From Scenedesmus sp. ARA3 (taxonomy: Eukaryota > Chlorophyta > Chlorophyceae > Sphaeropleales > Scenedesmaceae): DNA of 64,000 nt. The stretch covers positions 62,001-126,000 of the forward strand of contig RWJK01001312.1 in NCBI GenBank assembly GCA_004335835.1, read 5' to 3'. The translations under genes and the position numbers were made by a program. Positions 1-64,000 of this stretch are shown here, piece by piece (within the stretch, counting starts at the first letter, position 1; each line of letters starts with the position of its first letter). Below the pieces are notes generated by a model that worked only from the letters and a program-made list of their open reading frames with translations, made no database searches and was not told the origin of the DNA.

Positions 1-11
1 CACATTGTCGC

Positions 12-18
12 TATAAAA
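12..18 (+). promoter_or_regulatory. TATA box of the first FAS1 gene
   Basis: TATAAAA within a CTATAAAAGC context, 71 bases before the chosen ATG. The same CTATAAAAGC block precedes the second FAS1 gene (3620-3626), which supports both as core promoters. Confidence 0.7.
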
Positions 19-88
19 GCGTCATGTGTTCGCAATTATCACAGCAAACTCTGTAAACTCGCAAATACTGACCTTCTGCAAAGCCATC

Positions 89-1441: not shown

Positions 1442-1555
1442 GTTGGCAACACCTTGCTTGTCAAACTTGAGGGACTGCAGTGTGCTCCCTTGAGGTGGAC
1501 ATGTGCTGCTGTCTGCTGGTGTGAGCACACCACACTTGACTTGTCAGAAACTCTT

Positions 1556-1880
1556 GAGGTGGATGATGTGCTGCAGCCTGCTGGTGTGGGCACACCAGAG
1601 GCAGGAGCAATGCCTAGCTCTGGCCGGCGCATGCTGTAGATGTTGAGGGAACACCTTGCTTGTCAGGAAACTATTGAGGTGGATGATGTGCTGCTGCCTG
1701 CTGGTGTGGGCACGCCAGAGGCTGGAGCAATGCCTAGCTCTGGCCGGTGCATGCTGTAAAAGGTGAACAACTTGTTGGCATGAGGAAATTGTGTGGCACA
1801 GCAATACGTGAATAATGTGCTGCTGCTTGCCGGGACGGGAGCGGCAGACGGCAGGGCAGGTGCTAGCTCTCGCTGAGTAG
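1556..1880 (+). repeat. Tandem copies of the gene 1 coding end
   Basis: The last roughly 80 bases of the FAS1-1 coding exon (1359-1441: GTGGATGATGTGCTG through GGCCGGCGCATGCTGTAG) recur at 1559-1639 and 1679-1759, about 120 bases apart. Each still ends in the same stop position (TAG, TAG, TAA). A much weaker fourth copy spans about 1811-1880. They lie after the stop, so they are not translated from the normal transcript. Confidence 0.85.
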
Positions 1881-4249: not shown

Positions 4250-4250
<1 letters not shown>

Positions 4251-4312
<62 letters not shown>

Positions 4313-4649: not shown

Positions 4650-4870
4650 CTCTGCAGCATATGCAGCAACACATCGTCCACAGGGGCGCGCCTCTCCCTG
4701 CTGTGCACAAGCTGAAGTCTTGCACTGGGCTGCCCCGCTGCATCCTCCACCAACCACCCCAATCCTCTGCAGTCATGCAGTACCACATCGTCCCTGCTGA
4801 CGCCCTCCTCAGCACCCAGCTGAAAGCAGGCCAGAAGCTGACCACTGCCCTGGCAAGGGCAGGCCCACGG
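4650..4870 (+). repeat. Two ghost copies of FAS1-2 exon 3 5' end
   Basis: The working exon 3 starts TGCAG/ATCATGCAGTACCACATCG at 5035. A near-identical acceptor plus about 95 coding bases (MQYHIVPADALLSTQLKAGQ) lies at about 4769-4866, and a more decayed copy begins near 4653 (CTCTGCAGCATATGCAGC). Both copies lack a matching donor, so they look like duplicated exon edges rather than full alternative exons. Confidence 0.75.
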
Positions 4871-10580: not shown

Positions 10581-12325
10581 ATGTCGTTCAAGCCATCCAC
10601 TGTTGTCGGCCTACTGGCCTGCATCCTTGCAGCAGTGTGCGTCGTGCCAGCACAATCAAACAATACCTACAGGACTGTAGAGGAAGCTCTGCAGGCCAAG
10701 AATCTAACAGTTCTGTTGGCAGCTGTTCAGGTGAGCAGCACCGTATGGCATGTCATGGAAAGCACGTGGATGATTATGTGTGCTGTGGCGCTACCCTGTG
10801 CATGCATCTTGCTCTGATTGAAGATTAAAAGACAACAGTTTGATAGAAAACAAACACAATGGCGTGTGCCTGCCTGATGACATCACACTGTGGTATGCAT
10901 ACACCTGTTGCGCGCGCAATATCTGAGACACTTCCACTGCTGCTGCTGCTGCTGCTGCTGTTTCCGCCAATACTGCCGCTGCTGCCGCCTTCCCCTCTTC
11001 ATTTTTATTGCTGTGCAGGCAGCCGGCATTGTTGTGGAGCCAAGCAATGCCTTTACAATCCTGGCGCCAACCAACTTCGCCTTCGCAGACAGGCTCAACA
11101 AGACATTCAACATCACCCCTGCTGACCTGCTGAAACCAGAGAGCAGGGAAACCTTGCAGACGGTGAGTTTGCTGCTGCGTCAAGCCTACCAGGACAGGCC
11201 AGTGGATTGGCATGTACTTGCCCATTCGCTTGTCGGCACGCGTACGAGTTCTGTCAGCGTTACAGAAATGTTCTTGTTGTTATCACATGTCCTGCTTGCA
11301 AGGTTGGGCTGGTGCTGCTGCTGCCCCTGCGCAGTTCTTGCTCCTGCTGCTGCATGCTCCTGAGCTCTGGGTGCAGGCTGTGCACGCAGCACTTGGATAA
11401 GCCCTGACGCATCTGCTGTGCCCTGCTGCCCTGTACCACTAATCAACCACCATGCTGCTTCCTCAGCTGCCGCCTTACCACAACATTCCCAGTGCTGCCG
11501 TGCTCATCGCCACAGGCTGTGCCCCACTGGAACTGTTGTTTCTGCCCTGTCCCCCTCCCACCATTTATATCCTACAGGTGCTGGGCTATCACATCATCCC
11601 CAGCGGCGCTGTAAAGAGCAGCCAGCTGCGGGACTGCCTGACAGTCGCCACCGCCCTTCAGGACCCAAATAACACAGCCGCCAACCTCACCGTGCGTGTC
11701 AGGAAGGGCAAGGTTGACTTTGAAGGGCCCACAAATGACGCACGCGTCATCACTGCTGACGTCAGCGCTGGAGAGAGCGTAATCCACATATTGGATGACG
11801 TGCTGCTGCCACCTGGTGTGGGTGCAAAGGCTGCGGCGCCATCATTCCCCAGCCTGGCTGCCGCCCTGCAGGGAGCCAACCTGACCATCCTGGCTGCTGC
11901 TGTTCAGGTGAGTTGTACCTATAATATTCATTCATTTTTATTTAAAATGTTGGTTGCTGTGGACTGCAGATAAAGCATAAATGGCTTCAGCCTCTGGCTG
12001 CAAATGGCTTCCCCACATTAGCTGCTCAGCCCTATACAAACAGGTACATGCAGATAATCCTGCAGATCAAGAGCTCGATTGTTGATCACACCTGCCGAAA
12101 CCTTTCCTGCTGCCTGTTTCTGCTACTGCCGATTTATAAAAGATAAGAATTCGTGAGTAAAATCCTATAAACTTTCGTTTCTTTACAATGTACCGATAAA
12201 GGTTGTAGAATGGTGCCTGCAAGCATCTGGCATCACGCTGAGTCCTGCTGCCAACTACACCATCCTGGCACCCGGCAACTTTGCCCTTCACTGAGGTATT
12301 CAAATATCAAACCTGCTGACAATTG

Positions 12326-12357
<32 letters not shown>

Positions 12358-13417
12358 ATCCAAACTCATCCTGCAGGCATCTGGCGTCACGCTGAGTCCT
12401 GCAGCCAGCTACACCATCCTGGCACCTGGCTGTCACTGAGGAATTTATCCAAATATCAAACCTGCCGACAAATGCCCTGCTGCTGCTGCTGCTGATCCAA
12501 ACTCATCCTGCAGGCATCTGGCATCACGCTGAGTCCTGCAGCCAACTACACCATCATGGCGCCCAGCGACTATGCCTTTGTCACCCGGCTCAACGCCTCC
12601 CTGGGCATCGCCCCCATGGACCTGCTGCAGCCAAAGAATGCAGCCACACTGCGCGCAGTGAGTTGACTGCTGAGTCAGTTTTTATTTTTGTTCGAGCCTG
12701 ATCCGTGCTTTGGTCGCTTTGCAACTACAATCAGTTGCAGTGGGTTGCCCCATTGACCAGCTGCAGCCACGCTGCGCTTGGTGAGTTGAACGACAAGTCA
12801 GGTGGTGTTGCTGCTTGATCCATGTGGTAGCTGGAGTTGCTGTTGTGATCAAGTACTGTAGTGTTGCCTGTGGGCCCGTTGATCAGCTGGCGTTGACGCC
12901 GCAGCGTAGTCCTGTTAATCAAGCCACCAGCTGCCATGCCACCAGTCAGCACTCACCAGCCAGCTCTCAGCATGCACGTGTACACACGGCTGCATCAGGC
13001 TAGCATCTTGAATGCCTCCGCGTGCACCGGCCTGCACCTGCCAACCACACTCCTTTGCCTTCTGCATGCAGATGCTGTCCTACCATGTCATCTCCGGTGC
13101 TGCTGGGCTTACTGTTGTGTCTCACTGGACACTTGTACCGCACTGTCCTGCTGCATCCTCCACCAACCCCCAAAATGCTGCAGGTGCTGTCTTACCACGT
13201 CATCCCAGGTGCTGCTGTGCTCAGCAGCCAACTCACAGACGGCCAGAAGGTGCCAACTGCCCTGCGGGGTGCCGAGCCACTTGTTGTGAGGCTGCGCTGC
13301 AACAAGATCGACTTTGAGGGTGCCACAAATGATGCTCGGGTGCAGCGTGCTGACATCAGCGCAGGCAGCAACATTGTGGTGCATGTGGTGGATGATGTGC
13401 TGCTGCCACAGCTGTAG
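10581..13417 (+). CDS. Secreted two-domain fasciclin (FAS1) protein, gene 4
   Basis: Exons 10581-10730, 11019-11162, 11578-11907, 12514-12657 and 13184-13417 join in phase 0 and encode 333 residues. A signal peptide (MSFKPSTVVGLLACILAAV) ends near residue 24. Domain 1 has FTILAPTNFAF and LGYHIIPSGAV; domain 2 has YTIMAPSDYAF and LSYHVIPGAAV. Potential N-glycosylation sites occur (NNT, NLT, NKT, NIT). Exon sizes 144 and 234 match those of gene 3, so the two genes are tandem paralogues. Three introns hold broken copies of neighbouring exon edges (11466-11535, 12208-12513, 13070-13125). Probable cell-wall or matrix adhesion protein. Confidence 0.88.
11466..11535 (+). repeat. Ghost copy of FAS1-4 exon 3 5' end
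   Basis: CTTACCACAACATTCCCAGT and GCTGCCGTGCTC mirror the YHIIPS start of exon 3 (11578). The copy is decayed and lies about 110 bases upstream of the working acceptor. Confidence 0.6.
12208..12513 (+). repeat. Two ghost copies of FAS1-4 exon 4 5' end
   Basis: GCATCTGGCATCACGCTGAG followed by ACACCATCCTGGCACC occurs at about 12225 and 12378, before the working exon at 12514. Each copy is truncated after about 60 coding bases by CACTGAGG and followed by the same CAAATATCAAACCTGC intron block and a CTG run. The unit is about 140-150 bp. The second copy keeps the ATCCTGCAG acceptor. Confidence 0.85.
12740..12795 (+). repeat. Ghost copy of FAS1-4 exon 4 3' end
   Basis: GACCAGCTGCAGCCACGCTG followed by GTGAGTTGA repeats, in shortened form, the exon end and donor at 12618-12665 (GACCTGCTGCAG through GCGCGCAGTGAGTTGA). 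Confidence 0.55.
13070..13125 (+). repeat. Ghost copy of FAS1-4 exon 5 5' end
   Basis: ATGCAGATGCTGTCCTACCA followed by TGTCATCTCCGGTGCTGCTG matches the start of exon 5 (13184, GTGCTGTCTTACCACGTCAT), 114 bases upstream, with an intact acceptor. Confidence 0.7.
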
Positions 13418-16589: not shown

Positions 16590-16735
16590 GTTCTGCAAGG
16601 CTTGCTGGTTGGCAATGCAGCGGTTGTGAGTGTGGTTATTGATGTGCTGCTGGCGTGCTGACAAGAGTAGCAAAACGATAAGCGGGTAGCTGCTTGACTG
16701 CAGCCGAAGGTGAAGGAGGCCTAGGCTAGCAGATG
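16590..16735 (+). repeat. Duplicated 3' end of FAS1-5
   Basis: CTTGCTGGTTGGCAATG, GATGTGCTGCTGGC and AGCGGGTAGCTGC repeat the coding end (16338-16432), and GAAGGTGAAGGAGGC with CTAGCAGATGCATGTGTTAT repeats the 3' flank. The copy is about 260 bp downstream and its reading frame is broken. Confidence 0.75.
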
Positions 16736-17735
16736 CATGTGTTATGTGGTCAGGTATGTTGTCGCATCGTGCAGTATGCAAATGAAGGATTTGGCAGAAG
16801 GATTTGCAGTGAAGTATTGTGCCACGTTGGCTGTTGGTGATAGATTGTCAGCTGGTGCATGTTGAGCTGAAGACACATACTGGATGCGAAAGTTGATAAC
16901 AGCAAGCCTGCACAGAGCCTTCATGGGGATGTTGCTTGCTTGTAGCAGGAATATCATCGTCACAGTTGCCGCATGAATCAGGCAAAGCCAGGCATACTTC
17001 TGCAAGCTGCAATGTAAACACAAATTTGTTACATGTTACTTCTTCAGCCTGTTAGCCAACAGCCATGTAGTGCTCTACGGCAGCCGTATGTGGCAGACAC
17101 GTGCACCTGCCGGTGAACGCTGCTGTACATGTCTTGCCTTTTACACATACCCATCTAATGTGTGCAGACGTATCCATCTAATGTGTGCACAGCCGTCCCC
17201 ATTCTGCAACGCTACGCCCATCTCCTTTCCCACTGCAGACACCTTGCTGCACTTTGTGCGCTGCAACCACCATCATTCATTCACACAAGTTGTCCGCAGC
17301 ATACATCTGGGCACATCCGCATCGTGCACTGTGCAATGCGAGTGACAGACAATACATAGCAGTCCTCACAATCTTGCCAACACCAACTCTCAGCAGACAT
17401 AAATCGTCATTTTGCACCACCATGGGTTGCCTACCATCATGCTGCTGTGCAATTCACAATACTAACAAGATAATATGATCACCAAAGCAGGCGGTTGCAG
17501 TTTGGTCAAAAACAGCCGCATGAGCAAACTTCACTGCCACGGCAACTGCCGCTGCCAGCTTATTCAGTCGCAAACAACAGTGATGCATAAATACTTCATG
17601 CCAATGGTCACAATCCCGAATGCACCACTTTCAAGCAAAAGGCATGAACAACATGCATGTTCAAGATGACACCAAAGTCTCACAGCTGAACCAGGACCAT
17701 CATGTCATAGCTCAAACACTTGCAGTGCTTGCAAA
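16736..17735. other. Intergenic region between the FAS1 cluster and the minus-strand genes
   Basis: A gene-free stretch between convergent transcription units. I see no exon. Confidence 0.45.
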
Positions 17736-23099: not shown

Positions 23100-23626
23100 T
23101 CCTCAGTAGTCCAGCTCGCAGCGCCTGCCTTGCAGGAAGCTGTCCAGCTTTGTGTAGTAGTCCAGCATGGTGGTGTGGTCCAGGTGGCATGCCAGCTCAA
23201 ACCAAACCACCACAAACCACAGTTGGCCCTTACTAAGGCTCTACTAGTAGTAGTCCAGCTGGCAGCGCCTGCCCTGCAGGAAGGCGTCCAGCTTTTGCAT
23301 GCAGGTCCAGCATAGTAGTATTGCCCAGGTGGCATGCCAGCTCAAACCAAACCACCCTCAACCACCCATCAATGATCCAGCTTGCAGCGCCTGCCTTGCA
23401 GGAACATGTCCAGCTCTGTTTACAAGCGTGGTGCGGTCTAGGTGGCATGCCAGCTCAAACCAAACCACCACAAACCACGCCACGCCACGCAAGGACCATT
23501 GGTAGTCCAGCTCGCAGCGCCGCCCTTCAGGAACGCGCCCAGCTTTTGCATGCAGGTCCAGCATGTTGGTGTGTCCAGATGGCATGCCAGCTGTGACCCA
23601 ACCACCAGAGACCACTCTGCGGACCA
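23100..23626 (-). repeat. Four extra copies of the CDC73 terminal exon end
   Basis: The block read on the plus strand as AGTCCAGCTCGCAGCGCCTGCCTTGCAGGAA...CAGCATGGTGGTG starts near 23107, 23250, 23376, 23504 and 23631. The last is the working exon. Each copy retains about 90 coding bases (TMLDFYTKLDAFLQGRRCEL region) plus flank containing GGCATGCCAGCTCAAACCAA. Period is about 130 bp. Confidence 0.88.
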
Positions 23627-23775
23627 TTAGTAATCCAGCTCGCAGCGCCTGCCCTGCAGGAACGCGTCCAGCTTTGTGTAGAAGTCCAGCATGGTGGTGT
23701 GGTCTAGGTGGCGCCCCGTGCGCCTCAGCGGCAGCTTCAGTACCTTCCAGCCCTCGACAGTCTCCGGTACCTGAC

Positions 23776-23824
<49 letters not shown>

Positions 23825-24395
23825 GAGAAGACGAATGTCAGGGAGGCAGTGTACAGACAGACACCAGAACGCAACAGGCAGGGCAGCAGGGGCCAGCATC
23901 AGCACCTTCCAGCCCTCCACTTTCCAGCACCTGTGTAGCAGCAGCAGGAGTAGAAGTCGAAGAGGCGAAAGCCAGATTGAGTAGTTAATGGCAGAGTTAT
24001 TACAGCTGTTGGAGCACCAAAGCCGCCCACCTTCTCATCGCTGTAGTGGAAGTAGGCCCCAAACAGCTGCGTTAAGGTCTCCCGCAGTTCGCCCTTGTTG
24101 AGCCAATAGTACAGCTGTTATAACATCAACATGGCCCACCTTCTCATCGCTGTAGTAGAAGTAGGCCCCGAAGAGCTGCGTGAAGGTCTCCCGCAGCTCG
24201 CCCTTGTCGGCGCCCTTGAAGGGGAAGTCCTTGAACTGCCACGCCTTGCCCTGCAGCAGCAGCAGCAGCAGCGGCGGCAGCGGCGGCGGCAGCAGCAGCA
24301 GCAGCAGACAGTGAACAATCAGTGCATGTGCTGTGTGTGCTACAAATGTTAATGTAGCCACACAAGCAGAGCTTTGAACTGCCACGCCTTGCCCT

Positions 24396-24433
<38 letters not shown>

Positions 24434-25394
24434 GACAATAGCAGGTACATGTGGGTCCCGGTGCCATCACAGACGGCATAAGCCAAAACGGGATGAACAG
24501 ATGCTGGAAGGTGCCGCCACCACATATGAAACCGCCTCACAATCACGGCCACCACGCGCTTCCAGTCGGGGCGGCATGTAGTGCAGCCCACAACTGCGCA
24601 GCAGCGCGCAACAACAACTTGCAGCCGGCTCACCTGCACGATGACAGCCACCACGCGCTTCCAGTCGGGGTGGCCAGACCGCGGCACCTTGTCCGTCACG
24701 TGGTACCTGCAGGCGGCGCAGGCGGCAGCAGCAGCAGCAGCAGCGGACGCATCAGTAAGTCACTAATGCAAAAGTAGATGAAGTTATGATTAATAGCACG
24801 ACTGCTGCACTGTGCGCTGGAGGGCGCACCAAGAGACATGGCAGCAGCAGCGCTGCTGCTGCCAGCACTGTGACAAGAGTGCTTCTGCATGTTCGCAGCG
24901 CTTGGTTGATCACGTCGCAACATCTGCAGCAGAGCTTTCATATAAAAGCACACGCATATACATATGCCCTACTCAATCAGGTGATGGCACATGTGTTACC
25001 GCGCCGTAACACCATCTTCTGTTATAACATGTTACTAACAAGTGTCCCACCTGGGCATGCGCGGCCCGCTGCGCAGTGCTGTGCGTGTGTAGTCCAGGCC
25101 CTTGGCCGGTTTCACATTGCCGGCAGCAGCAGCAGCCTCGGCACTGCAGGCAGTCAACAGGGGGCACAGCAGCAAGCATGTACAACAGCAGCAGCAGCAG
25201 CAGCAGCCTGGTCAGCAGCGCTGTGTGTGTAGTCCAAGCCCTTGGCCGGCTTCACAATGCCGGCAGCAGCAGCAGTAGCAGTAGCAGCCTCGGCACTGTA
25301 GGCGGGCACACCGGCAGCACGACAGCAGCAGCAGCAGCATGTTCAGAAGCACTGTGCGCGTGGTGCAGGTGCTTGGCCAGTTTGACGCTGCAGA

Positions 25395-25442
<48 letters not shown>

Positions 25443-28263
25443 GCCGCACCACACACCAATCATGCAGCCCACCTGGGCACAAGCTTGCCCTCCTCCAGGA
25501 ACTGCCCCGCAACACAGAGCAGGTGGAGCCCCTTGCACTGCAACAGCATCCACCCACCTGGGCACAAACTTGCCCTCCTCCAGGAACTGCAGCACACTCA
25601 CAATGCAGTTGCACCCCCCACGGCACATAACAACAGCCAGCCACCCCACAACAGTGCCGCCAAGCGCATCGCCGCGCACGCACAGCAGTGGTGCCGCACT
25701 GCACCACATCCGCTGATCCCAAACGCAACCCGCAGCTGATCACAGACTTGCAGCAGCATGCGGGCCACCATTCCCACCTTGGCACAAATTTGCCCTCTTC
25801 CAGGAACTGCCGCGCACTGAAGATGTTGATCATCGCAGTCACACCAGACGGCACCAGCCACAGTGACGCCCCACCCCCAACAGTATGAGTCGTACCAAAA
25901 AAGCAGCCCACCGACCCACCTGGGAACAAACTTGTCTTCCTCCAGGCACCCCTCACACAGTGGCCACGTCCCAGCATCTCTGCATATGCAGCCCTTGCCC
26001 CATTATCTGTGGTGACGGGACCCTAAACCCTGAAACCAATTTTGTGAATCCTCACCTGGGCACGAACTTGCCCTCCTCAAGGAACTGCCGCGCATTGAAG
26101 ATGTTGATCATTGCAGTCACACCAGACGGCACCAGAATGATTGGAGGATCCCGCCCAGCCCTGCTGCTGCTGCTGCCGCCGCCGGCAGCGCCGCTGCCCG
26201 CCCGGTGGCTGCTGCTGCGGCCACCAGCTGCTGCTGCTGCACGGGCGTCCTTACTGCTGCCGCTGCTACTGCGGTGCTTGGCTGCAGGAGCCGCACCGCC
26301 AACAGCACCTGCTGCTGCTGCTCCAGCAGGCGCCTTGCCTGCTGCTGCTGCTGCTGATTGGCCGTCCACCTGGATACCGTAACCGTATCCGAGGTTTGCT
26401 GCCAGGCTGGCATCGCCTCCCATGGCCTTCATCTGCCCCACCACATCGTTACGCTCCATACGGCCCGAGGGCTTCATGAAAGCGGGGCCGGCCGGCTGCA
26501 GCAGCATAACACAGCAACAGCACAACCACGTGAGAAAGATAAAGCATGTCTTGAGGTTTTTGCTCAAGCCGTTGACAGCGTGCTGCAGCAGGGCACAGCA
26601 CCTGCAACAGCAACACAATGTGAGAACAAGAGCAAAGGGTTGCAGCAGATGTCCCTTCCCATGGCCTTCGTCTGCCCCACCACATCGTTACGCTCCATAC
26701 GGCCAGACGGCTTCATGAAAGCGGGGCCGGCCGGCTGCAGCAGCATGGCACAACAGCAGCAAAAGAACACCTGGATGAAAATGCAGAATCAAAGCTTCTG
26801 CCAAATTTGCTGCCAGCGTGCTGCAGCAGTGCACAGCAACAGCAACAAATTGTGAAAACAAGAGCGACGGGGGGAAACACATGTCGCCTCCCATGGCCTT
26901 CATCTGGCCAACCACATCGTTACGATCCACACGGCCTGAGGGCGTCATGAAAGCAGGGCCGGCCGGCTGCAGCAGCATGGCACAGCAACAGCAAAAGGAC
27001 ACCTGGATGAGAATGCAGATTAAAGTTAGAGGTTTCTGCCAAATCCGCTGCCAGCGCGCTGCAGCAGTGCATAGCAACAGCAACCGGTTGTAAGAACAAG
27101 AGCAAAGGAGTAGGACACATGTCGCCTCCCATGGCCTTCATCTGGCCAACCACGTTGATACGCTCCATACAGCCCGAGGGCTTCATGAAAGCAGGGCCGG
27201 CCTGCTAAGAAGCACAGCAACAGTGCACAAAAGGGAACAGTGCAAATACCTCTAACAACAGACAAGGAATGAAGTTGATCGGTCTGTCTGAAGCACACAC
27301 GGTGCACAGCACAGCAGCTACGAGGCAGCAGTGCACAGGCACAGGCGCGGGGCACAGCAGCTTGCGCCTCACCTTCGCTTGCTGCGGCTGCTGCGCTGGT
27401 TGCTGGTGCCGATTTGTAGCCAAAAGCACGCCAACTTGTCAGCACAGACACAAGACAAAGAGAGGCCCGTTACAGCTGGCACCACGCAGCGCCCCAGCCC
27501 TCACCTTTGCTTGCTGCGGCTGCTGCGCCGGCCGCTGCTGCCCAGATGCAGGCCGCTGCTGCTGCTTGCCCGCCGCCGCCTTGGCGTTTGCTGCTGCTGC
27601 CGCCGCCACCTCTGCTGCTTTGCGGTGCGCCAGCACCTTGTCGAGCATGTCTAGCACTGGCTTGAAGTTGGCCCCGGGCGCACACTGCGGAGCAAAAGGT
27701 GCAGTAGCAGATAGCAGACATGCCATACAAAGGTGATAGAGGCAGCAGCATGCACTGTGCCAGCACCTTGTCAAGCATGCCGGGTACGGGCTTGAAGTTG
27801 GCCCCGGGTGCACACTGCGGAGCAAAAGGTGCAGTAGCAAACAGCAGACATGCCATACAAAGGTAGTAGAGGCAGCCGCATGCACTGTGCCAGCACCTTG
27901 TCAAGCATGCCCGGTACGGGCTTGAAGTTGGCCCCGGGTGCACACTGCGGACCGCAAAACACATCACATATGTACTGTGGAATCAGGAAAGGCAGCAGCA
28001 ACACAGCTGTGAGTGCAGCAGTGCTGGGCGGACTGTAACTGGAGATTGAGCAGCTGGTGCCCCAGCTGCTGCACTGCGCATGCCGCCTGTGTGCAATCCT
28101 ACACATGCAATCGCTGCAGCATGTGCTGGTGCTGCCTGCTAGGCTGCGGCTGCTGCGCAGCTGCCAGCACGTGCCATTGCCTCTGCAGCCACAGGTTTCC
28201 TTGCCCGCTCCTACGGCTGCCGTCTGCCAGACAAATAGCTGCTGCTGCTGCTGCGCTGGCAGC

Positions 28264-28314
<51 letters not shown>

Positions 28315-28481
28315 CTGTCAGCCTGCCGTCGCTGCTGCTGCTGCTACAATTGCTGCCACTGCCGCTGCTGCTGCTGCTGCACTGCCGCACGCACCAGCAG
28401 TGAGTTCCTGTCCCGCAGCTGCTTCTCCTGCTCCAGCAGCTGCCGCAGCGCTGCAGCCTCACCCTGCGCTGACTCTGCAGT

Positions 28482-28519
<38 letters not shown>

Positions 28520-34689: not shown

Positions 34690-35762
34690 CATCACAAGCG
34701 AGTGTTTGCTACAGCAGTCAGGGCGTACCTCAGTCACGGTGACAATCGTCGTCCCATCATACTATGATGTGGTGGTACCACCGAGCAGCTGCCAGCGTGC
34801 AATAACAGCGTGCGCGTGTACTTGCACGATTGTGTTGCAGGTGACGCCGCACCCGCAGTGTGTGGTGGCGGTGACAATCGTCGTCCCATCACACCACTGA
34901 GTAGCAGCAGCGTGCACATGTGCCGCAGGTGCATCAAGGTGCCAGGCGGTGGCAGGACCCACATGTACTATCCTCTCTCAATAACAGCGTGTGCGTGTAC
35001 TTGCACAATTGCGTTGCAGGTGACGCCGCACCCGCAGTGTGTGGCCGTGACAACTGTTGTCCCATCACACCACTGAGCAGCTGCCAGCGTGCAATAACAG
35101 CGTGTGTGTGCACTTGTGTCGCACCTGCATCAAGGTGCCAGGCGTTTCCAGGATCCACATGTACTATCCTCTCTTATCAACAGCGTGCGCTTGTACTTGC
35201 ATGATTGTGTTGCAGGTGACGCCGCACCCGCAGTGTGTGGTGGCGGTGACAATGGTTGTCCCATCACACCACTGACCTGCTGCCGGCGCGCAATAACAGC
35301 GTGTGCGTGTACTTGTGTCGCAGGTGCATCAAGGTGCCAGGCGGTGCCAGGGCACACATGTATTATCCCCTCTTATCCACAATTGTGCGCGTGTGTACTT
35401 GCAGAATTGCGTGGCAGGTGACGCCGCACCCGCAATATGTGGCCGTGACAATCGTTGCCCCGTTACACCACTGAGCAGCTGCTGGCGTGCAATAACAGCA
35501 TGCGCGTGTACTTGTGTCGCAGGTGCATCAAGGTGCCAGGCGGTGCCAGCCACCCACATGTACTATCCTCTCATATCAACAGCGTGTGTGTGCACTTGCA
35601 CAGTTATGTTGCAGGTGACGCCGCACCCGCAGTGTGTGGTGGCGGTGACAATCGTCGTCCCATCATACCACTGAGCAGCTGCCGGCGGGCAATAACAGCG
35701 TGCGCGTGTACTATCCTCTCTAATCAACAGCATGTGCGTGTACTTGCACGTTTGTGTCGCAG
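34690..35762 (+). repeat. Five ghost copies of the SGNH terminal exon start
   Basis: The acceptor plus GTGACGCCGCACCCGCAGTG occurs at 34841, 35020, 35216, 35418 and 35614, before the working copy at 35763. Most continue through VAVTIVVPSHH then stop. The unit is about 150-200 bp and also repeats GGTGCATCAAGGTGCCAGGC and CACATGTACTATCCTCTC. The copies are 90 percent or more alike by eye. Confidence 0.92.
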
Positions 35763-38443: not shown

Positions 38444-38761
38444 ATGAGCCGCTTCCTTGCAGCAGCGCTGCTGCTGGCAGCCCTGCCGGCCCTGCTTGCT
38501 CAGCCGAACTGCCGCTCTGACTACATCCTGCTGCTGCCCGCCGTGCCTCCCCTGCCCTCACCACAACCCAGGCAGTAATACACACCCACACCCCAACCAA
38601 ACAAGAGCCGCATCCTAGCAGCAGTGCTGCTACTGGCAGCCCTGCCAGTCCTGCTTGCTCAGCCAAACTGCCGCTCTGACTACATCCTGTTGCTGCCCCC
38701 TGTGCCTCCCCTGCCCTCGCCACACCCCAGGCAGTAACCCACACCCACACCTCAACCAAAA
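38444..38761 (+). repeat. Two ghost copies of the signal-peptide exon
   Basis: The first (38444-38578) is itself a complete 44-codon frame: MSRFLAAALLLAALPALLAQ, a short tail with NCRSDY, and TAA. The second (about 38605-38735) has the same content but its ATG is changed to AAG. The working copy starts at 38762. The unit is about 158 bp and includes the leader CCACACCCCAGGCAGTA. Confidence 0.88.
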
Positions 38762-48160: not shown

Positions 48161-48192
<32 letters not shown>

Positions 48193-51100
48193 CAGCATCT
48201 CCGCAAGCCACCGGCTGCATCAGCTGCACCAGCAGCCCTGTCTGCCTGCGCACCACATCCGCCTCAGCAGAGTACTCTCCTAGCTCCACGCCCAAGCCGC
48301 TGCTGCAGCTGCCAGTACAGCTGCTGCTGCTGCCAGCCGGGCCATAACTCGACGGCGCAGTCCCTGCGCCGGTTGCTGCGCCTGCTCCTGCAGGAGACGG
48401 GATGGTCTCTAGGCCGTTGTCACGCAGGTTTGGCCGCTGCTGCAGCAGCAGCGCCTCAGTGGTGAGCAGGTCCGGCACAGGGCTCCTGCGCCGTAGGTCA
48501 ATCCGAGACCCCTGCAGACAGTGACAATGCAAAAGCGACGTTTTGTTGAGACTGATGCGCAGCACACACACCAACAGGCAATGCGCCATGTCCTCATACT
48601 GAAGCTGCGTTGCCGCCCCTGTTGGTCGACCCCCACATCTGCCACAGCTAACTGGCCGACAGCACAGCAGCACAAGCTCATGTAGACAAGCAGCCCCAAA
48701 TCCATGCAGCTAGCTGGTGACATACAACACTGCAAGCACCTTGCACTGCATGCAGCCGCGCCTGCCCACCATGAGCTCTGAGATGGCCCTGCGCTTGCCC
48801 GCACTCTGTCGCTTCTTGCTGTTGGCGTTGGCGGCACGCCGCAGCCGCAGGCCCGGGCCCTCGCCCTGCTCCACTAGGATCAGCGCAGGGAAGTTGCGGT
48901 ACAGCAGCCCAGGCCGCGGCACCAGCGGCGACACCTGCCGCTGCGGGTTGGTGAAGACCTCTGCACGGTTGTGTGCAAAGAAAGAGAAAAGCCGTTGCAG
49001 CAAGTTATGTATGGTTTGAAGTTGAGTTATAATGCAGCGCGATGTGCCACGGCAGGAGCATTTCTACGCTTCCTGTCTGCAGGTGCTCGCCCTGCTCCAC
49101 CAAGAACAGAGCAGGGAAGTTGCGGTACAGCAGCCCAGGCCGCGGCACAAGTAGCGACGCCTGCCGCTGCGGAATGGTGAAGACCTCTGCATGGTAGTTG
49201 AAAGAAAGGCAGCAAAACGTTGCAGCATACGTGCGGTTTGAAGTTAGGTGTGGGATAGTTGGCAGAGTCATGTTCCACAGCAGAAGCGTCACTGCGCTGC
49301 TTGCATCTGCAGGACACTGCAAACTCGCCCACCTGTTCCCTTGTCCAGCTTCAGCATGGCGAGCCTTGATGCATGATGTGCTGCCTCCAGCGACAATACT
49401 ACGCTTGTGGGCTGCAGGACACTGCAAAACGCCCACCTGTTCCATTGTCCAGCTTCAGCATGGCGTGCCGCGATGCATGGTGTGCTGCCTGCAGTTGCTC
49501 TTCTGCTGCCCTCCACTGCCCTAAGGAGTCCTCTGCTGCAGCTAGCCAGTCTTGGCTGTTGTAGGGGCAGCCGCCCTCCTCCACAAATGACAGGAAGGGA
49601 AGGCCCTGCATCATGTGCTGCAGCAGGGCTGGGTCGCAACGCCTGCATATAATGTCCAGAAATAGCAGGGCAGCAGCAGTGCAGCACAGCCACAGGAAGA
49701 CCATCAAGCAGTCAGGGCCCAAGCAGTAGCACCGCACTTGCCTGGATCTGATAGGTTGGCACCGGCACTGATGGGATGTCAAACAAATTGTGATGCTACA
49801 ACCTTTTATTGGAGCAATCAGAGACATCACATGCTGCAAGGCAGAACGGCATATGTGCTGCGTGCATGTGCACTGCCTGTGTGCGGATTTGGGCGGTGCA
49901 CTCACCCACACAGCGCAGTGTGATGCTCCAGCACTGCAGCCATGTCCACTCTGCACGGCGGCTGCTGCGGCCCCAGCAGCACAGAACTCCTCACTGGCGG
50001 CACAACAGGCAGCGCCACACCGCCGCCGCTACCGCCGCCGCTCACTGCCGCACTCGACGCACGCTTCTGCATCTGCAGCAGGCCTTGCTGTACGCCGCTG
50101 AGCGCCCTGCAGGTGATGCTGCGGCTGCCGTCGCAGCTGCCGGGTATCAGGAAGCCTTGGTATCCATCCAGCACGCTGCGGAAGAATTCCATGAAGATTC
50201 GCAGCAGTAGCGCCTGCTTGCTGGGCCCCCAGGGCTGCCCTGCCATCTGCTGTGCTGCAAGGATCCAGGGGTCTGTGTGCTGCGCTACTGCATCAGCGTC
50301 TGCAATAGACGGCTGCAGCAGCATCCTGCAGCCCAGGAAGCATGACAGATGGAGCAGACAGTGTGCAAGGATACATGGTGTAGCGGTGCGCGTTTCAGGT
50401 AGCAGTGAGTGCAGGATGCTGCTGCATGCTTTACAGGGGCGGCATTGTAGTGCTACTGCACGTTTGTTTTCAGGCTTGAGGCAAACCAGGTTAAAGGTAC
50501 ACCAGAGGACCATGCAGTGTGCACCAGGCGATGACGAGGCAGACTTTGATGGGGGCTACTGCACCCACCTGACCCTGCTGCGCAGCTGCAGCATGTATGG
50601 ATGTGCCAAGCAGCGCTGCAGTATGGTGTCTGTCCTGCTGGGCCGCAAGCTGTCTGCATCCAGGTCCACTTCAACAAGCGCATCCAGCACATGCGGCTCG
50701 ACATACTCGCCGCTATGAAGGCCCATGAGGAATGGCGTGGGCGCCTGCATGCATGCAGTCCGATTGCAAGTCGATCGCAAGTCTGCGTGTTAGACGATGG
50801 GAACACAGTTCATTTTGGGCGAATGACAGGGGCATTGGGCACAGCGAGGTGCAGGCTGCTGCTCTGGCTTCTGTTGCAGGAGTGGCTGTCACTGCTTTGA
50901 ATGTGGCAGGTAGCACAGGTTGTTTCTGTTGGGGTGGGCCAACAGCTGCCTCCGCTGTGCTGCACAGCTCACCTCCAGGTAGTCTGTTCATTTAAATGTA
51001 GTGCAGTGTGCAGGACACAAGCACACTGCACTAGAGTTCAGTTGAAACAGCATCTGGCTGCACAGCTCACCTCCAGGTAGTCTGTCAAGCTGTATGGCAT

Positions 51101-56927: not shown

Positions 56928-58200
56928 ATGCAGGCATTATCAGCAAAGAATGCTCAGGCAGCTGCAGGGCCCCCTAGGCAGTGCGCAGTGCCAGCACGCA
57001 CAGGTTCACGCTGCTCAAGGCGCCCAGCGCAGCCAGCACGCAAAGCACAGCCAATTTTTGCCAGTGCTGATAAAGTATCGCCATTGAAAGCTCAGGTAAC
57101 ATTTACTGGCCTTCATGCGTGACCTATGCCGCGTTATGTGTAGTTTGGTCAGCGTCATCGCTTGCTGCTGCACTGTTGCCAGCTGTGTGGAAAACGAAGG
57201 CATCAAGATCCTGTGAACGAATATCCTACCTAAAAAATTTGCATACGAAGCACGTTGGCTTGTCCCTGTACTGGTGCTCATGATCAGTAATGTAGAAGCC
57301 ACACACAACTGCTCAAACCAACAACGCTGCTGCTCAGCGCCACAGGCGGGCTGGTCAGATGTGCATCAGCAAGCTGCAACCCACACACATTGCAACAGCA
57401 GTTAACTGAACACCACTTGTGACAGCTGCAACAAGCAAGTGGTCTCATCTGTGCGTCCGTTGTGCTGCCATACCCTTGCACGCGTCTCCCTGGTGCCGCT
57501 GCTGTTGCTGCTGCTGACATCACCATTGCTGTGGCTGCTGCATCCCTTGGCTCACTCTCCACATCCTTTATCCCCTAATCTACTGTCTTGCATCTTCTGC
57601 CTACTGTCCTGCAAGCAGGCTGTGGATGAGATCGCTGTGTACACGGAGGTCAGCACGCAGTCAGTGGCAGATGCACAGGTCAAGCTGGAGAAGCCGCGTG
57701 TAGTGGTGCTGGGATCAGGCTGGGCATCTGCATGCTTCTTCAAGGCGCTGCCAAAGGACATCAAGTGAGTCTTGAAATTGGCGGATGCCTGCGGATGTCT
57801 CAAATGGCCTACTAGGCTAGCACCTGGGGTAGTATAGATTCTGGAACCTGCAACAGCGGCAGTAGCAGCGCTGGCGCCCAGCCAAGCCAAAGCCCCCAGC
57901 AGCCGCTGCTACGCGCGTTGAGACGTTCAGCAATGAATGGTGCAATAGCAGCAGCAGCAGCACCGGAGTGGCTGTGCTGGCCAGACCAGGCAGAGCAGCT
58001 TGGCAATGCTTCTGGAGCAGCGGCCCATGCAGCATGGCGTTACATTTGCTGTTTTCTTTGCACACAATCAATCAGCGTGCAGGCACGGAGTACATTCTGC
58101 ATCAGCTGCAGTGCATCAGCAGAGAGCGCTGGCAGCGGCAGCAACTTAGGATACACCTGGTGGTTCTGGCACTGGCGCTGACACCTGCAGTATGTGTCTG

Positions 58201-58232
<32 letters not shown>

Positions 58233-60090
58233 GTGCAGGGAGAAGTATGAGGTGGTCATGGTGTCACCCCGCAACTACTTCCTGGTGAGCTGCAGTGATG
58301 GGCGTCAATTCAATGAAATCGGATTATCAGGGCATGTGCACTCGCAGTGCTGCAGCCGCTACTCCGCTAATGTCAATAGCAGTGCAGCTACGCTGTGCTC
58401 TGTTTGTATTTGATGCAGCTGTCTCCTAGTCAGCAGCAGCGCTTCATTTGCACCTAGCAAGGTAGCATGGCTCATGGCACGGTCGCGGGGGTCTGCATGG
58501 CGCAACAATTTGTACCTCAATAGCGTGCTGCGTGCATGCCACTCAGCAGATACCAGCAGGCTGCTAGGGTGCATGTTGCAGCTGTTGCAGCACCAACCGT
58601 GCAGTGCTAACACCTTCAGCATGTCGGAAGGTCAAAGGAGAACAGGGTGCACAGGGCACCAGCCGTGCAGTGCCTCACCTTCACAGAGCTGCAGCTGTTG
58701 GTAGCTGTTGGCAGCTGTTAGAGATTTGCTGTCAAGCTGGCAGCACCTCCATCTGAGTGCCGTAGGTTGCTGCATCAGCACCTTCATCATCGACTAAGTC
58801 ATTGGATGGCGGGTTTTGCGTTGTCGCAAACCCTGTTCTCTTTTGACATAGTGTGATGCTGAAGGTGTTGGTACTGCAAGCTGCGCCACGCAGTGTGGTG
58901 CACTCTTTCAGCTTTGAATCTGCCACTGTGACTTCTGCAGTGGCAGCAAGCCTAGCAGCTGCCAGTTGCTGCAATCGACTCGGCATGCACATCGGCTGTT
59001 TGCAGTGCTGGTCTGCATGCCCTGGCCGTGCGTGCAGTGCATAGTACCTTGCTATCGGCAATCAAGCGTGCCAGGCATTATCACCAGTGGTTGTCGCCAC
59101 GCTCAACCCTGTGGTTCGCTGCCGTGGCCCTGCCCCAACCTATAAAAGCCACATTCGAGCTTTCAATCAGCGCCTTGCCCCATTGCCATTGAGCTACAGC
59201 CTTGATTGCTTCCCACGTGTGATTGCATGTGAGCTGCTGCTGCTGCTGCTGCTTGCAGTACACGCCGCTGCTGCCTGCTGTTGCCGTGGGCACCATGGAG
59301 GAGCGCAGCATTGTGGAGCCAGTGCGCAACCTGGTGCTGGGCAAGGTGAGGCACAATGCCAGGGGCAGGTTTCACGCTTCAAACACCATTCTGTCTCTCG
59401 CGTGTGGAGCCAGTGCGCAACCTGGTGCTGGGGAAGGTGAGGCACAGCAATTGATTCAAATAAAGCATGGATGATTGTTCTACGATGTAGTTGCTGCCTT
59501 GGTTGGTGAAACCAGTGCGCAACCTGGTGCTGGGCAAGGTGAGGCACAGCAATTGATTCAAATAAAGCATGGATGATTGTTCTACGATGTAGTTGCTGCC
59601 TTGGTTGGTGAAACCAGTGCGCAACCTGGTGCTGGGCAAGGTGAGGCACAGCAATTGACTCAAATGAAGCATGGATGATGGTTCTATGGTGTAGTTGCTG
59701 CCTTGGTTGGTGAAACCAGTACGCAACCTGGTGCTGGGCAAGGTGAGACACAATGCCAGGGGCAGGCTTCAAGCTTCAAACACCATTCTGTATCTTGTGT
59801 GTTGTGTGTTGAGCCACTGCGCAACCTGGTGCTGGGCAAGGTGAGGCACAGCAGTATAATTGGTTGAACGCCAGTTGCCGCCTGCTGGCCGCAGGGCTGA
59901 CGTCCAGATGCTGGAAATGTTTTGGTGGCTATGCGTTGCAGCGGTGCGGCCGATGTGCATCATGTCCTGCTTGTGAAGTGCAGAGTTGAATGAAGGGCCT
60001 GGACAGGTTGATTAGCTTGCTGTACAGCAGGCTGGGAGTGGGCTGCTTGCTTGCTTCAGCTGGTACAGCATGACAATGTACACGCTGCTG

Positions 60091-60128
<38 letters not shown>

Positions 60129-60196
60129 GCGACTACTACAAGGCTGTGTGCAAGGCCATCGACCGTGTCTGTCATACGCTGACATTGTGTGCACCG

Positions 60197-60239
<43 letters not shown>

Positions 60240-63200
60240 GGGCAACTACTATGAGGCTGTGCGCAAGGCCATCGAACCTGTCTGTCACACGCTGACATTG
60301 TGTGCACCCTTCTGCTGCTCCGCTGCTGCTGCTGCTGCTGCCGCTGCTGCTGCTGCTGCTGCTGCCAGGGCGACTACTACGAGGCTGTGTGCAAGGCCAT
60401 CGACCATGTGCTGACATAACACTTTTCTGCTGTTGCCGCTGCTGCTGCTGCTGCTGCTGCCAGGGCGACTACTACGAGGCCGTGTGCAAGGCCATCGACC
60501 CGGTGCGCAAGGAGCTGGTGGCGTGCTTCCCAAAGGACGCTGGGCTGGATGAGGCATGCTTCAAGATTGCTTATGACATCCTTATCATTGGGGTGAGCTT
60601 GTAGAGGGTTGGCACACACTTGTATGGCTTTAGCTTTCTGGTTCAAGGATGAAGCGTGCTTCGAGGGGGCGTACGCCATCCTGATCACCCCTGGGGTGAG
60701 TTCTGAGGCCTGTTGCTTTGGACCATTTGCCCGCCTTGCTTCATGCAAGCATGCAAAAATGCTGCCCTCTGGCTGTTGACCCTGCTGTTCTGACATGTCT
60801 GCACTGCAGGTGGGCAGCGTGAACAACACGCTTGGCGTGAAGGGCGTGGCCAATCACTGCCAGTTCCTAACTGCCCCTCTCACTGCTGCTGACCCTGCTG
60901 CTAACATTGCTGCCGCGCCTGTTTTCCTCCAAATCCTGCGGCAGGTGGGCAGCGTGAACAACACGTTTGGCGTCAAGGGCGTGGCCAATCACTGCCAGTT
61001 TCTAACTGCCCCAATGACTGCCGCTGATACTGCTGCTTCAACTGCTGTAATGTGAACATCACTGCAGGTGGGCAGCGTGAACAACACGTTTGGCGTGAAG
61101 GGCGTGGCCGAGTACTGCCAGTTCTTCAAGTCCATCGAGGACGCCAACACGCTGCGCAAGCGCATCAGCGAGTGCTTCGAGCGCGCAGCGCTGCCCTACG
61201 TGAGTGGGCCTGTGCTGTATCTTGTCAGCAATTTGCTCTGCCCATAATAGCAGCTAAGAATTGGTTAGTGCTGCGCAAGCGCATCAGCGAGTGCTTCGAG
61301 CGCGCCGCGCTGCCCTACGTGAGTGCGCCTGTATCCGCTGCAAGCAGCATCAGCGGAGAGCATGTGCACAGAGCACAGGAGACGACGCAAGTGATCTTGC
61401 CCGGGCACAGATTGGAGCTGCTCTGTAGAATTCCACCTGCTGCGTGCTTCTCTTGTGCCCTACGCACAGCAGCGGATGGTGCTGCAGGCATGCTGCTGCC
61501 GAACATGGTGGAAGCAGGGTGAAGCGTACCCTGGTGGCATATTTTACCTGCTGGTGTTCACTGACCGTGCATGTTCTGTCTGTTTGCTGCTGCCTGGCCT
61601 GCGCAGACACCCGAGGAGGAGCGCAAGAAGCTGCTGTCCTTCGTCATCTGCGGCGGCGGGCCCACAGGCGTGGAGGTAGCCGCAGAGATCCACGACTTCG
61701 TGTTCAACGACCTCAAGGTGCGGCCACAGTCGGTGACTTGCGTTATAACCACTATATAACCTTGTGGGTGGCGTTTTGGTCATGTTGTTTTGGAAAGCCA
61801 GATGCGTGGAGGTGGCGGCTGAGATCCACGATGTTGTGTTCAACAACCTCAAGGTGCGGTCGCAGGGTCGGTGCTTTAGGGAATTAGGTTACGTCTTCGT
61901 GTAAAGAACACGGTGTTTTAACTGTGACGTGCAACCACTATGACGTGCAATAACTTGCCGCTTTCATACTTGTGGATGGCTGTTTCGCTATGGTGTTCCC
62001 AAAGCCAGTGCGTGGAGGTGGCGGCCGAGATCCACGACTTCGTGTTCAACGACCTCAAGATGTGGACACAGGGTTTGGTGGTTTAGAACAGAGTTAAACT
62101 CGTGGATGGCTTCTCTGCTTGTTTTTTAACCGATGTGCTGCGTGGAGGGGTGACTGAGATCCACGACTTTGTGTTCAACGACCCCAAGGTAATGCACTGT
62201 TGTGTACCAGCACTGGAACTGTTGCATCGCGTGAGCTCTGCCCCACAGCCCTCTGCTGTTGCATGTGTATCCCCCGCATGAACACTACACATCAATCTGA
62301 GCTGCTGAAGGATGTGCATCTGTCTGCAAGACGCACCGCCATTTGTTGTTGATCTTAACAGCCGTGCACCTGGTGTCTCGCCTGCAGGCGCACTACCCTG
62401 AGCTGCTCAAGGATGTGCGCATCGGCGTGATCGAGCTCATGGCTGTTTGCCTGCAGATCCGCCACCCTCTGTCGGCGCTCTGAAGATCCACAAAACTGCT
62501 GTTTTGCCTGCAGGCACACTACCCTGAGCTGCTCAAGGACGTGCGCATCCGCGTGATCGAGCTGATGGACTACGTGCTGTCTACCTATGACCGCAAGATC
62601 GGCGAGTTCACGCACAAGCAGTTTGAGCGCGCAGGTGCGTTCACACACAAGTGGGTCCTGGCAGCATCAGACGGTGTACCAAATGCATGTGCATGCGTCG
62701 GATCATCGTACTAGCCGTCTTATTGACAAGTATCATACACCATTGCAACTCCCACTGCACCAACAAACCCACCTGCAACTGCTGGCGCCGCTGCTGACAA
62801 GTAACGCTGAAAAATGTGTCTGCATGCCGCAGGCATTGAGCTGGTGCTGAACACGCGTGTGGCCAGTGTGCGTGACGGCTATGTGTCTGTGGTGCCCAAG
62901 AGCGGCGAGGAGTTCGAGATCCCCTTTGGCTCCTGCGTGTGGGCCACTGGCATTGCCATGAACCCGCTCATCAAGGAGCTGCAGCAGCAGTTCCCCGAGC
63001 AGACACACTTCAGGTGAGCTGTTCTGTGAGGTGTGGCTATTCTGAGGGGGCTTGAAGCAGTTGTTTAAAATCGCCATGAACCCACTGATCAAGGAGCTGC
63101 AGCAGCAGTTCCCGCAGCAGACGCACTTCAGGTGTGGGAGCTGGTAGTCTTGTGGTGTCATGTGTGCTGTGCGTGAGGCATTTGTACACAATGCCATGCA

Positions 63201-64000
63201 CAGTGCTGCCTGCATCTGCTGCCACAGCGCAGCATCACCCCTGCCGTCATCTCCCTGGCCAGGCATGGCATGCAACTGCACAGACCAACGAGTTGCTGCA
63301 ACTGCAGCATCTGGGCCTTTGGAGATTGATGTTGTGCTGCCGCTGCTGCTGCTGCTGCAGGTCGGCGCTGACTGATGAGTTCCTGCGCGTGAAGGGCAGC
63401 GACGGCAGCATCTGGGCCTTTGGCGACGCCTCAACAATCGAGCAGCCACGCGCGCTGCAGCGCGCAGACGAGCTCTTTGAACAGGCCGACACAAACAAGG
63501 TGCGGCGGCTAAGCTTGATATGCATAGGGTTCATTTTGGGTGGGCGGGATGACACATCAGGAACAGCAAGTGCGCTGCAGCACGCAGATGAGCTCTTCGA
63601 GCAGGCCGACACCAACAAGGTGCGGCGGCTAGGCTTGATGTGGATAGGGTTCATTTCGGATGGGCGGGACGACACATCAAGACCGCTCTGGCATGCGTGC
63701 GTGCTGCGCTCTGCAGGGGCGGATAGTGGGCAAGGAGCTGCAGGCGCTGCTGAACGAGGCCAGCAAGGATCCATCCCCTCTTGTTGCACTTGCCATGCAC
63801 CTCATGCCTTTTCTGATGGTTGATTGTTGCACCTGCTGGATTATTCTGAACACATTTGCCTTGCAGGACGGCCTGGTGGGCCTGAAGGAGCTGCAGGCGC
63901 TGCTGACTGAGGCCAGCAAGGAGTTCAGCCACCTGGAGGAGCACGCGCGCTTCCTGGAGGCCAAGAACAAGCGGTGAGGCTCGACACAACGCTCTCTCGG
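56928..64000 (+). CDS. Type II NAD(P)H dehydrogenase with EF-hand, 3' end outside the window
   Basis: Eleven exons are visible: 56928-57095, 57619-57764, 58239-58284, 59259-59345, 60464-60592, 61068-61199, 61607-61717, 62514-62634, 62833-63013, 63361-63499 and 63867-63973. They are phase-consistent and give about 456 residues before the edge. Residues 1-50 are Ala/Arg/Gln-rich without acids, a transit-peptide type ([10 protein letters not shown]...PIFASADK). The FAD Rossmann motif GSGWAS is at 88-93 and the NAD(P)H motif GGGPTG at 252-257; WATGIAMNP and IWAFGDAST follow. An EF-hand loop at about 417-428 ([12 protein letters not shown]) has Asp, Asn and Asp at 1, 3 and 5 and Glu at 12, as in calcium-dependent NDB enzymes. 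It transfers electrons from NAD(P)H to quinone without proton pumping. Plastid or mitochondrial location cannot be settled from sequence alone. Confidence 0.92.
59400..59855 (+). repeat. Five ghost copies of dehydrogenase exon 4 3' end
   Basis: CCAGTGCGCAACCTGGTGCT followed by GGGCAAGGTGAGGCACA recurs at about 59410, 59512, 59615, 59718 and 59817, after the working exon end at 59345. The period is about 103 bp, the donor is intact in every copy, and the spacer TTCAAATAAAGCATGGATGA is shared by three units. Confidence 0.93.
60088..60420 (+). repeat. Three ghost copies of dehydrogenase exon 5 5' end
   Basis: CTG tract, then CAG/GGCGACTACTACAAGGCTGT and AAGGCCATCGACC, recurs at about 60124, 60239 and 60367 before the working acceptor at 60463. 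Each copy carries its own (CTG)n plus acceptor and is followed by TGTCACACGCTGACATTGTG. Confidence 0.93.
60640..60702 (+). repeat. Ghost copy of dehydrogenase exon 5 3' end
   Basis: Reads [16 protein letters not shown] with a GTGAGT donor, against [15 protein letters not shown] in the working exon. Confidence 0.75.
60808..61067 (+). repeat. Two ghost copies of dehydrogenase exon 6 5' end
   Basis: Acceptor plus [20 protein letters not shown] recurs at about 60810 and 60945, before the working exon at 61068 (which has VAEYCQFF). Units are about 125-135 bp. Confidence 0.9.
61262..61325 (+). repeat. Ghost copy of dehydrogenase exon 6 3' end
   Basis: CTGCGCAAGCGCATCAGCGA through CTGCCCTACGTGAGT is nearly identical to the working exon end at 61151-61205, about 120 bp downstream. 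Confidence 0.9.
61800..62195 (+). repeat. Three ghost copies of dehydrogenase exon 7 3' end
   Basis: GTGGAGGTGGCGGCTGAGAT and GTGTTCAACRACCTCAAG recur at about 61806-61860, 62011-62065 and 62141-62192. The first and third keep a GT donor; the second has AT. Confidence 0.88.
62380..62445 (+). repeat. Ghost copy of dehydrogenase exon 8 5' end
   Basis: CTGCAGGCGCACTACCCTGA through GTGATCGAGCTCATGG repeats the working exon start at 62508-62570, about 127 bp upstream. Confidence 0.9.
63068..63135 (+). repeat. Ghost copy of dehydrogenase exon 9 3' end
   Basis: ATCGCCATGAACCCACTGAT through ACTTCAGGTG repeats 62953-63017, about 119 bp downstream, with its donor (GTGTGG). Confidence 0.9.
63562..63685 (+). 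repeat. Ghost copy of dehydrogenase exon 10 3' end
   Basis: GCGCTGCAGCACGCAGATGA, the donor GTGCGGCGGCT and the following intron GATAGGGTTCATTT / GGGCGGGAYGACACATCA repeat 63453-63560 at a 117-bp step. Confidence 0.93.
63708..63778 (+). repeat. Ghost copy of dehydrogenase exon 11 5' end
   Basis: CTGCAGGGGCGGATAGTGGG then AAGGAGCTGCAGGCGCTGCT and GAGGCCAGCAAGGA mirrors the working exon start at 63862-63930 ([19 protein letters not shown]). The EF-hand DG codons are changed. Confidence 0.88.

Follow-up and report, generated by a model that had tools for sequence, protein, structure and literature searches.

Partial exon-edge copies in and beside two algal genes, probably left by tolerated local duplication across coding boundaries

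Gao and Lynch reportedly described in 2009 frequent internal duplication of genes, including duplication across exon borders, with a focus on whole exons or new introns. A duplication across an intron-exon border is documented in potato as a single event (PMC4974935), tandem duplication is named among the mechanisms of intron gain (PMC3443670), and 25 novel intron positions in 31 Drosophila genes arose by tandem duplication or sliding (PMC2891723). Here we describe a 64,000-bp stretch of algal DNA (the window; bases 62001-126000 of contig RWJK01001312.1, in an assembly of 87.3 Mb and 1,567 contigs) in which two genes, encoding a type II NADH dehydrogenase and CDC73, carry arrays of partial exon copies next to their working exons.

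The dehydrogenase model comprises 14 exons and 612 amino acids and the CDC73 model 10 exons and 503 amino acids; both are in frame, and all 22 introns are GT-AG. The dehydrogenase model matches the UniRef Tetradesmus obliquus protein P0001 at 99%, with three residue mismatches and one 17-residue block that is an insertion in P0001 relative to the model. The CDC73 model differs from protein P0121 by seven residue mismatches and four gap columns. P0121 is presumably intron-free, because its contig of 1,889 bp is too short for an 8-kb gene with introns. Judging from these matches, the source alga is evidently T. obliquus or a very near relative. Gene models were built for these two genes and the remaining window genes were read by eye. 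The two genes were the own examples of a first-pass annotation of the window, and the rates obtained from them are not unbiased.

Self-comparison with microsatellites masked detected 30 direct repeats in the dehydrogenase gene and 42 in the CDC73 gene, as against a mean of 0 in shuffled sequences (20 shuffles each), and in neither gene did a repeat pair two coding stretches. All repeat families of the dehydrogenase gene are attached to an edge of the coding sequence (CDS); two CDC73 families, a 44-bp minisatellite and a GCT-rich pair, lie off such edges. The minisatellite (29989-30767) fills much of CDC73 intron 2, between the copies of the exon 2 donor end. Smith-Waterman alignment of each exon edge with the noncoding sequence adjoining it yielded 45 partial exon copies in 22 families (score of at least 44, at least 14 distinct trimers, at most 12 nt from the exon edge). 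Copies accompany 22 of the 48 coding edges, namely 20 of 44 splice edges (11 donor, 9 acceptor), both stop edges and neither of the two start edges, with one to five copies at each such edge and exon matches of 30-87 nt (Table 1). The copies at the dehydrogenase stop lie past the window end, in L024. A further, diverged donor-end copy is visible by eye near 60648, outside the Smith-Waterman list. By a strict count GT or AG is kept in 34 of the 40 intronic copies; in five of the others the alignment ends short of the edge, and one copy lacks its GT. The 15 introns that contain copies have a median length of 582 bp, a small difference from the 493 bp of the seven without, and the span from a working edge to its farthest copy makes up 47% of the intron length of the two genes. 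All 45 copies are exon fragments with one edge rather than whole exons with both splice sites, and none has the form of a cassette or mutually exclusive exon; a helicase copy elsewhere in the genome (L025) is a possible whole-exon exception. The first-pass annotation had reported tandem exon-edge copies, usually with an intact AG or GT, in eight genes or gene fragments. The alignments bear out the copies and their splice dinucleotides for the dehydrogenase and CDC73, and the other genes of that count stem from reading by eye.

The same annotation had proposed that copies of a 5' exon end lie upstream of the working exon and copies of a 3' exon end downstream. This placement holds in both genes: with no repeat pairing two coding stretches, every copy falls on the noncoding flank of its working edge. 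It is nearly tautological, since on the opposite flank a partial copy would be part of the exon. That copies always straddle one splice junction is not the case. They also occur at the stops of both genes, by eye at the stops of two further genes that we take to be fasciclin-like (one with its stop near 1441), and at one start (38444-38762), and a universal splice-junction rule was rejected on these grounds. The common factor of the copies is the edge of coding sequence, not splicing, and copies at coding edges that include stop and start codons are what tolerance by selection predicts.

We consider it probable that the copies reflect local duplication tolerated across coding boundaries, followed by neutral decay, with synonymous states frozen in the copies. 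Short stretches of ~60-250 bp would often be duplicated locally in T. obliquus. Where such a duplication crosses a coding/noncoding boundary (a splice junction, a stop or a start), it would be tolerated, as the message stays intact while the outer, original edge is in use, and the extra exon edge would become an inert decoy in an intron, an untranslated region or the upstream region. The working edge and older copies alike would give rise to new copies again and again, and these would decay neutrally and make the introns longer. Each copy may thereby freeze the synonymous state that the exon, or another allele of it, had when the copy was born, while changes, mostly synonymous, go on in the working exon.

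Local duplication was also surveyed more widely, in 20 stretches chosen blind to content, either at set intervals or on long contigs (185 kb without N). This sample contains 74 local repeat arrays in 17 of the 20 stretches, with a median shortest spacing of 120 bp. Mismatches of the arrays show period 3 (z 3.6; all other tested periods at most z 1.2), so some of the arrays are coding. One sampled contig stretch holds a long internal coding repeat (L019:3730-5798). Among the top 20 helicase exons of the genome by hidden Markov model search rank, six have partial copies within ~650 bp; two exons (C719 and C910) had been noticed as copy-bearing before the count, yet are in the top 20 by score, and the exon at rank 21 (L026) is left out of it. 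Donor sites are visible by eye at several of the helicase copies, for which exon ends were not mapped. Local duplication abounds in the genome, and the exon-edge copies are one part of it that can be seen. The excess at edges over introns, seen in the two genes only, may be inflated, as constrained exons keep their copies recognisable for longer.

Intron sequence beside the copy is homologous to that beside the working edge in 12 of the 22 families by shuffles (p <= 0.01), and 11 of these also stand against unrelated introns. The suggestion that exon edges are copied together with flanking intron fits 15 of the 45 copies, in which the intron flanks of copy and working edge are alike beyond the level of any unrelated intron; in the other 30 they are not. 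Those 30, with flanks no better than unrelated introns, would suit a mechanism tied to splicing, such as copying templated by splicing intermediates, in which copies end at splice sites. Similarity does often stop no more than a few bases from the junction, and the dehydrogenase gene has no intron-only family (a same-length random segment overlaps CDS with p ~0.25, a figure that ignores the longer recognisability of exon copies). Such a mechanism is nevertheless very unlikely, given the similar copies at stop and start codons, the intron homology of the 12 families and the repeat ends of the wider sample, where splice motifs are not enriched. Paralogs were also considered as a source of the copies and rejected: no paralog with >80% identity was found for any exon.

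Changes private to one intronic copy show no coding constraint and are neutral-looking. In the ten families with at least two intronic copies, private changes comprise 19 synonymous and 35 nonsynonymous ones; the synonymous share is 0.35, where 0.29 would be expected in the absence of constraint (p = 0.2). Differences confined to the working exon number 9 and 5, respectively, and mixed patterns 26 and 11; private changes differ from these two classes pooled (Fisher p = 0.0009). Sites changed in several copies fall into the mixed class and are not assignable to a lineage, and through this class some constraint on the copies may still enter. Over all multi-copy families, which are not independent, private changes are distributed 26:19:29 over the codon positions, and a third-position mutation bias is not seen. 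Among copies whose introns can be aligned, 14 pairwise comparisons, not independent of one another, gave differences of 0.11, 0.07 and 0.22 at the three codon positions and of 0.11 in the introns.

Several results weigh against the proposed explanation. At equal mutation rates the ratio of synonymous to nonsynonymous divergence (dS/dN) should barely exceed 2 if a neutral copy and a constrained exon separated at a single moment, because the copy would change everywhere and the exon only synonymously. Between the working edge and the nearest intronic copy, one per family, dS/dN is 5.6 (100 vs 43 changes in 29 families; likelihood-ratio p = 1.6e-9 against a ratio of 2), with a synonymous divergence of ~0.20 and a nonsynonymous one of 0.036. 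The two genes contribute 65 synonymous and 28 nonsynonymous changes in 20 families (5.6), and the helicase exons 35 and 15 in nine families hand-picked from the repeats, nearest per edge (5.7). Shifted reading frames gave ratios of 0.38 and 0.31 in the two-gene set, which indicates that the coding frame is real. The 45 copies contain one in-frame stop against about 6.2 expected, a rough figure in that stops were observed over whole aligned codons and expected per substitution. By shuffles, 10 of the 22 families lack intron homology. In the wider sample the alignment covers 0.9 or more of the spacing in only 5 of the 74 arrays. A coding enrichment of 66% vs 28%, measured against single random segments at a threshold of 4, shrank with matched shifts to a weak 48 coding-like arrays of 74 against 39.6 expected (z 2.4), and stricter thresholds gave 17 vs 14.8 and 9 vs 6.7 expected. 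An apparent enrichment of splice motifs at repeat ends (32 of 74 vs 7.8 with unpaired shifts) was gone once homologous copies and single places were controlled for (34 vs 30-35). Frequent local duplication tolerated where the message is unchanged, as the first-pass annotation had it, accords with the neutral private changes, the stop-edge copies, the exon-end duplicate in P0001 discussed below and the share of intron length spanned by copies; its splice rule was too narrow, and it is not borne out in full, given the weak or null tests in the wider sample and the dS/dN of 5.6, which simple neutral decay does not predict.

Where it is strong, the synonymous excess over the copies' own decay may have one of two causes: the working exon derives from a haplotype other than that of the copy, or the copies spent part of their existence as coding sequence. 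In the first case, duplication or recombination in a highly diverse, outcrossing species would place a copy beside an exon of a different haplotype, with synonymous differences from the start though the copy is young. This possibility, which we regard as conceivable but somewhat doubtful, would refine the proposed explanation rather than replace it. It fits the gap between synonymous and nonsynonymous divergence, the neutral-looking private changes and the absence of a close paralog. It also fits copies without any nonsynonymous change that still differ synonymously, at eight sites in L025, five in L037, and eight and three in L027. At L037:773-1078, which has three tandem copies, the outer one shares by eye four of five synonymous states with the working exon as against the middle copy. 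Four families with well-aligned, non-repetitive introns, however, differ by 0.10 in the intron and 0.30 at synonymous sites, which would require exchange limited to exons, and P0001 departs from the model by only the three residues. The third-position excess is also milder in a broader set of repeats. In frames guessed from codon scores, 32 arrays, five of them in the rest of the window and 27 in the wider sample, gave 136:87:212 over the codon positions, and the 31 without L019 gave 90:56:168, close to a factor of two; the noncoding parts of these repeats differ at 0.148.

In the second case the copies would be, or long have been, alternative or backup coding exons kept by selection on the protein. 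The dS/dN of 5.6 contrasts with the 1.1 of the two post-stop families (5 synonymous, 10 nonsynonymous changes), a contrast that comes from these two families. The scarcity of stops, the retained GT and AG and the exon end duplicated in P0001 point the same way, as does the L025 copy, which carries its own acceptor-like and donor-like sequences and, across 116 sites, lacks nonsynonymous changes, next to an intron that has visibly diverged further. Yet private changes are not biased towards synonymous ones, even if the mixed class belongs to no assignable lineage; the two genes carry copies that are fragments of exons; and proteins P0002 and P0121 lack them. We therefore regard coding use as unlikely, and the neutral private changes favour the other haplotype over part-time coding. 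It is conceivable, if somewhat doubtful, that the intron copies form an archive of the exon's synonymous state, either in the past or in a different haplotype; this would imply exchange of exons between deeply diverged haplotypes without the nearby introns, or coding use for part of the copies' life.

As judged from P0121 and P0002, messages probably exclude the copies. The block in P0001, in contrast, duplicates the end of exon 11, and nothing corresponds to it here: the best scores in the following intron and in 700 bp upstream were 16 and 23, where a full copy scores 94. The block suggests, at the level of deposited sequence, that copy number differs between strains and that copies can enter gene predictions or messages. 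A search for DNA of relatives gave no match with P0001 in viral contigs and none with one 32-base exact pattern in prokaryote contigs. The duplicate in P0001, found independently in a protein from another T. obliquus source, also bears on whether the copies are an artefact of assembly. Tandem repeats are hard to assemble, but the copies mostly differ from one another, at up to ~1/4 of exon sites and often with distinct intron flanks, and local repeats are spread over nearly all of the sampled stretches; an artefact is thus extremely improbable and was rejected.

Table 1 Positions of the two gene models and of the copies in the window (by eye: read from the sequence by eye).
Feature	Position	Strand	Remark
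Type II NADH dehydrogenase, exons 1-11 of 14	56928..63973	+	remainder past window end (L024)
5 copies, donor end of exon 59259-59345	59403..59840	+	GT intact in 5/5
3 copies, acceptor end of exon 60464-60592	60128..60411	+	
2 copies, acceptor end of exon 61068-61199	60810..61000	+	
1 copy, donor end of exon 61068-61199	61270..61318	+	48/49 nt identical
3 copies, donor end of exon 61607-61717	61798..62188	+	one without GT
1 copy, acceptor end of exon 62514-62634	62388..62442	+	
1 copy, donor end of exon 62833-63013	63070..63131	+	differences: 5 synonymous, 1 nonsynonymous
1 copy, donor end of exon 63361-63499	63561..63619	+	intron flank similar too
1 copy, acceptor end of exon 63867-63973	63726..63769	+	alignment ends 9 nt before edge
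CDC73 gene, 10 exons	23627..31640	-	in-frame gene model and protein match
3 copies, donor end of CDC73 exon 2	29661..30819	-	intron shared with 44-bp minisatellite
2 copies, acceptor end of CDC73 exon 5	27756..27944	-	
1 copy, donor end of CDC73 exon 5	27373..27410	-	
3 copies, acceptor end of CDC73 exon 6	26657..27202	-	
3 copies, donor end of CDC73 exon 6	25473..25857	-	
2 copies, acceptor end of CDC73 exon 7	25215..25407	-	alignments end 7-8 nt before edge
1 copy, donor end of CDC73 exon 8	24538..24575	-	alignment ends 3 nt short; no donor there
1 copy, donor end of CDC73 exon 9	24031..24098	-	
4 copies, end of last CDC73 exon, 3' of real stop	23105..23583	-	coding edge, not splice site
CDS-end copies, fasciclin-like gene, 3' of stop at ~1441	1555..1873	+	by eye
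Acceptor-end copy upstream of exon starting near 5035	4748..4866	+	by eye
2 acceptor-end copies upstream of exon starting near 12514	12222..12440	+	by eye
CDS-end copy, another fasciclin-like gene, 3' of stop at ~16429	16598..16746	+	by eye
5 acceptor-end copies, ~199-bp units, upstream of exon starting near 35764	34841..35670	+	by eye
2 start-codon-straddling copies upstream of apparent real ATG near 38762	38444..38670	+	by eye
One donor-end and one acceptor-end copy, presumed DENN/WD-type gene	49070..49385	-	by eye

Self-comparison of the whole window detected 102 direct repeats and no inverted ones. Several presumed fasciclin-like genes, recognised by eye, form a cluster on one strand at 1-16500 and are distantly similar to one another. 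The first of the two start-straddling copies keeps its ATG and, if transcribed, would open an upstream reading frame of ~49 codons. The arrays of the window are not all exon-edge copies, some being plain noncoding or in-frame coding repeats. On the minus strand, 17745-18481 is an apparent in-frame coding repeat with a 108-bp (36-residue) unit, a protein repeat rather than a set of exon-edge copies, and the noncoding-looking arrays at 5399-5811 and 32252-32517 have units of ~130 and ~110 bp and no apparent coding edge.

In predicted gene models the mean intron length of T. obliquus, 462 bp, exceeds that of Chlamydomonas, 270 bp, and those of three further Sphaeropleales, at 230, 302 and 284 bp (Table 1 of PMC5966456). 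If boundary-crossing duplication is as common as it appears here, introns may grow largely through exon-edge duplication, which would help to explain the long introns of T. obliquus. Each gene would then be a natural test of how the spliceosome chooses among near-identical sites, and might also record how its exons have changed. For annotators, the apparent exon-edge copy contained in the deposited protein P0001 is a warning.

Our findings resemble those attributed to Gao and Lynch in that duplication within genes is frequent and crosses exon borders; that account is not known to include fragments of exon edges at close to half of the splice edges of a gene. Among the titles and abstract openings listed by searches of an open-licence library, which is incomplete, none described such copies for this lineage. 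The potato case likewise involves a boundary-crossing duplication in which exonic bases of one copy turn intronic and inherited splice signals are reused, but it concerns one gene, one event and a new intron, whereas dozens of copies lie here within existing introns (PMC4974935). Intron gain by tandem duplication shares the local duplication, the unchanged message and the duplicated splice sites that absorb it; there an exonic duplicate makes a new intron, while the copies described here adjoin and lengthen existing ones (PMC3443670). The novel introns of Drosophila also comprise duplicated exonic sequence later intronised, yet at new positions and not as arrays of edge copies in old introns (PMC2891723). 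Such duplications are known from single cases, and it is the density of the copies that is unusual in the two genes described here.

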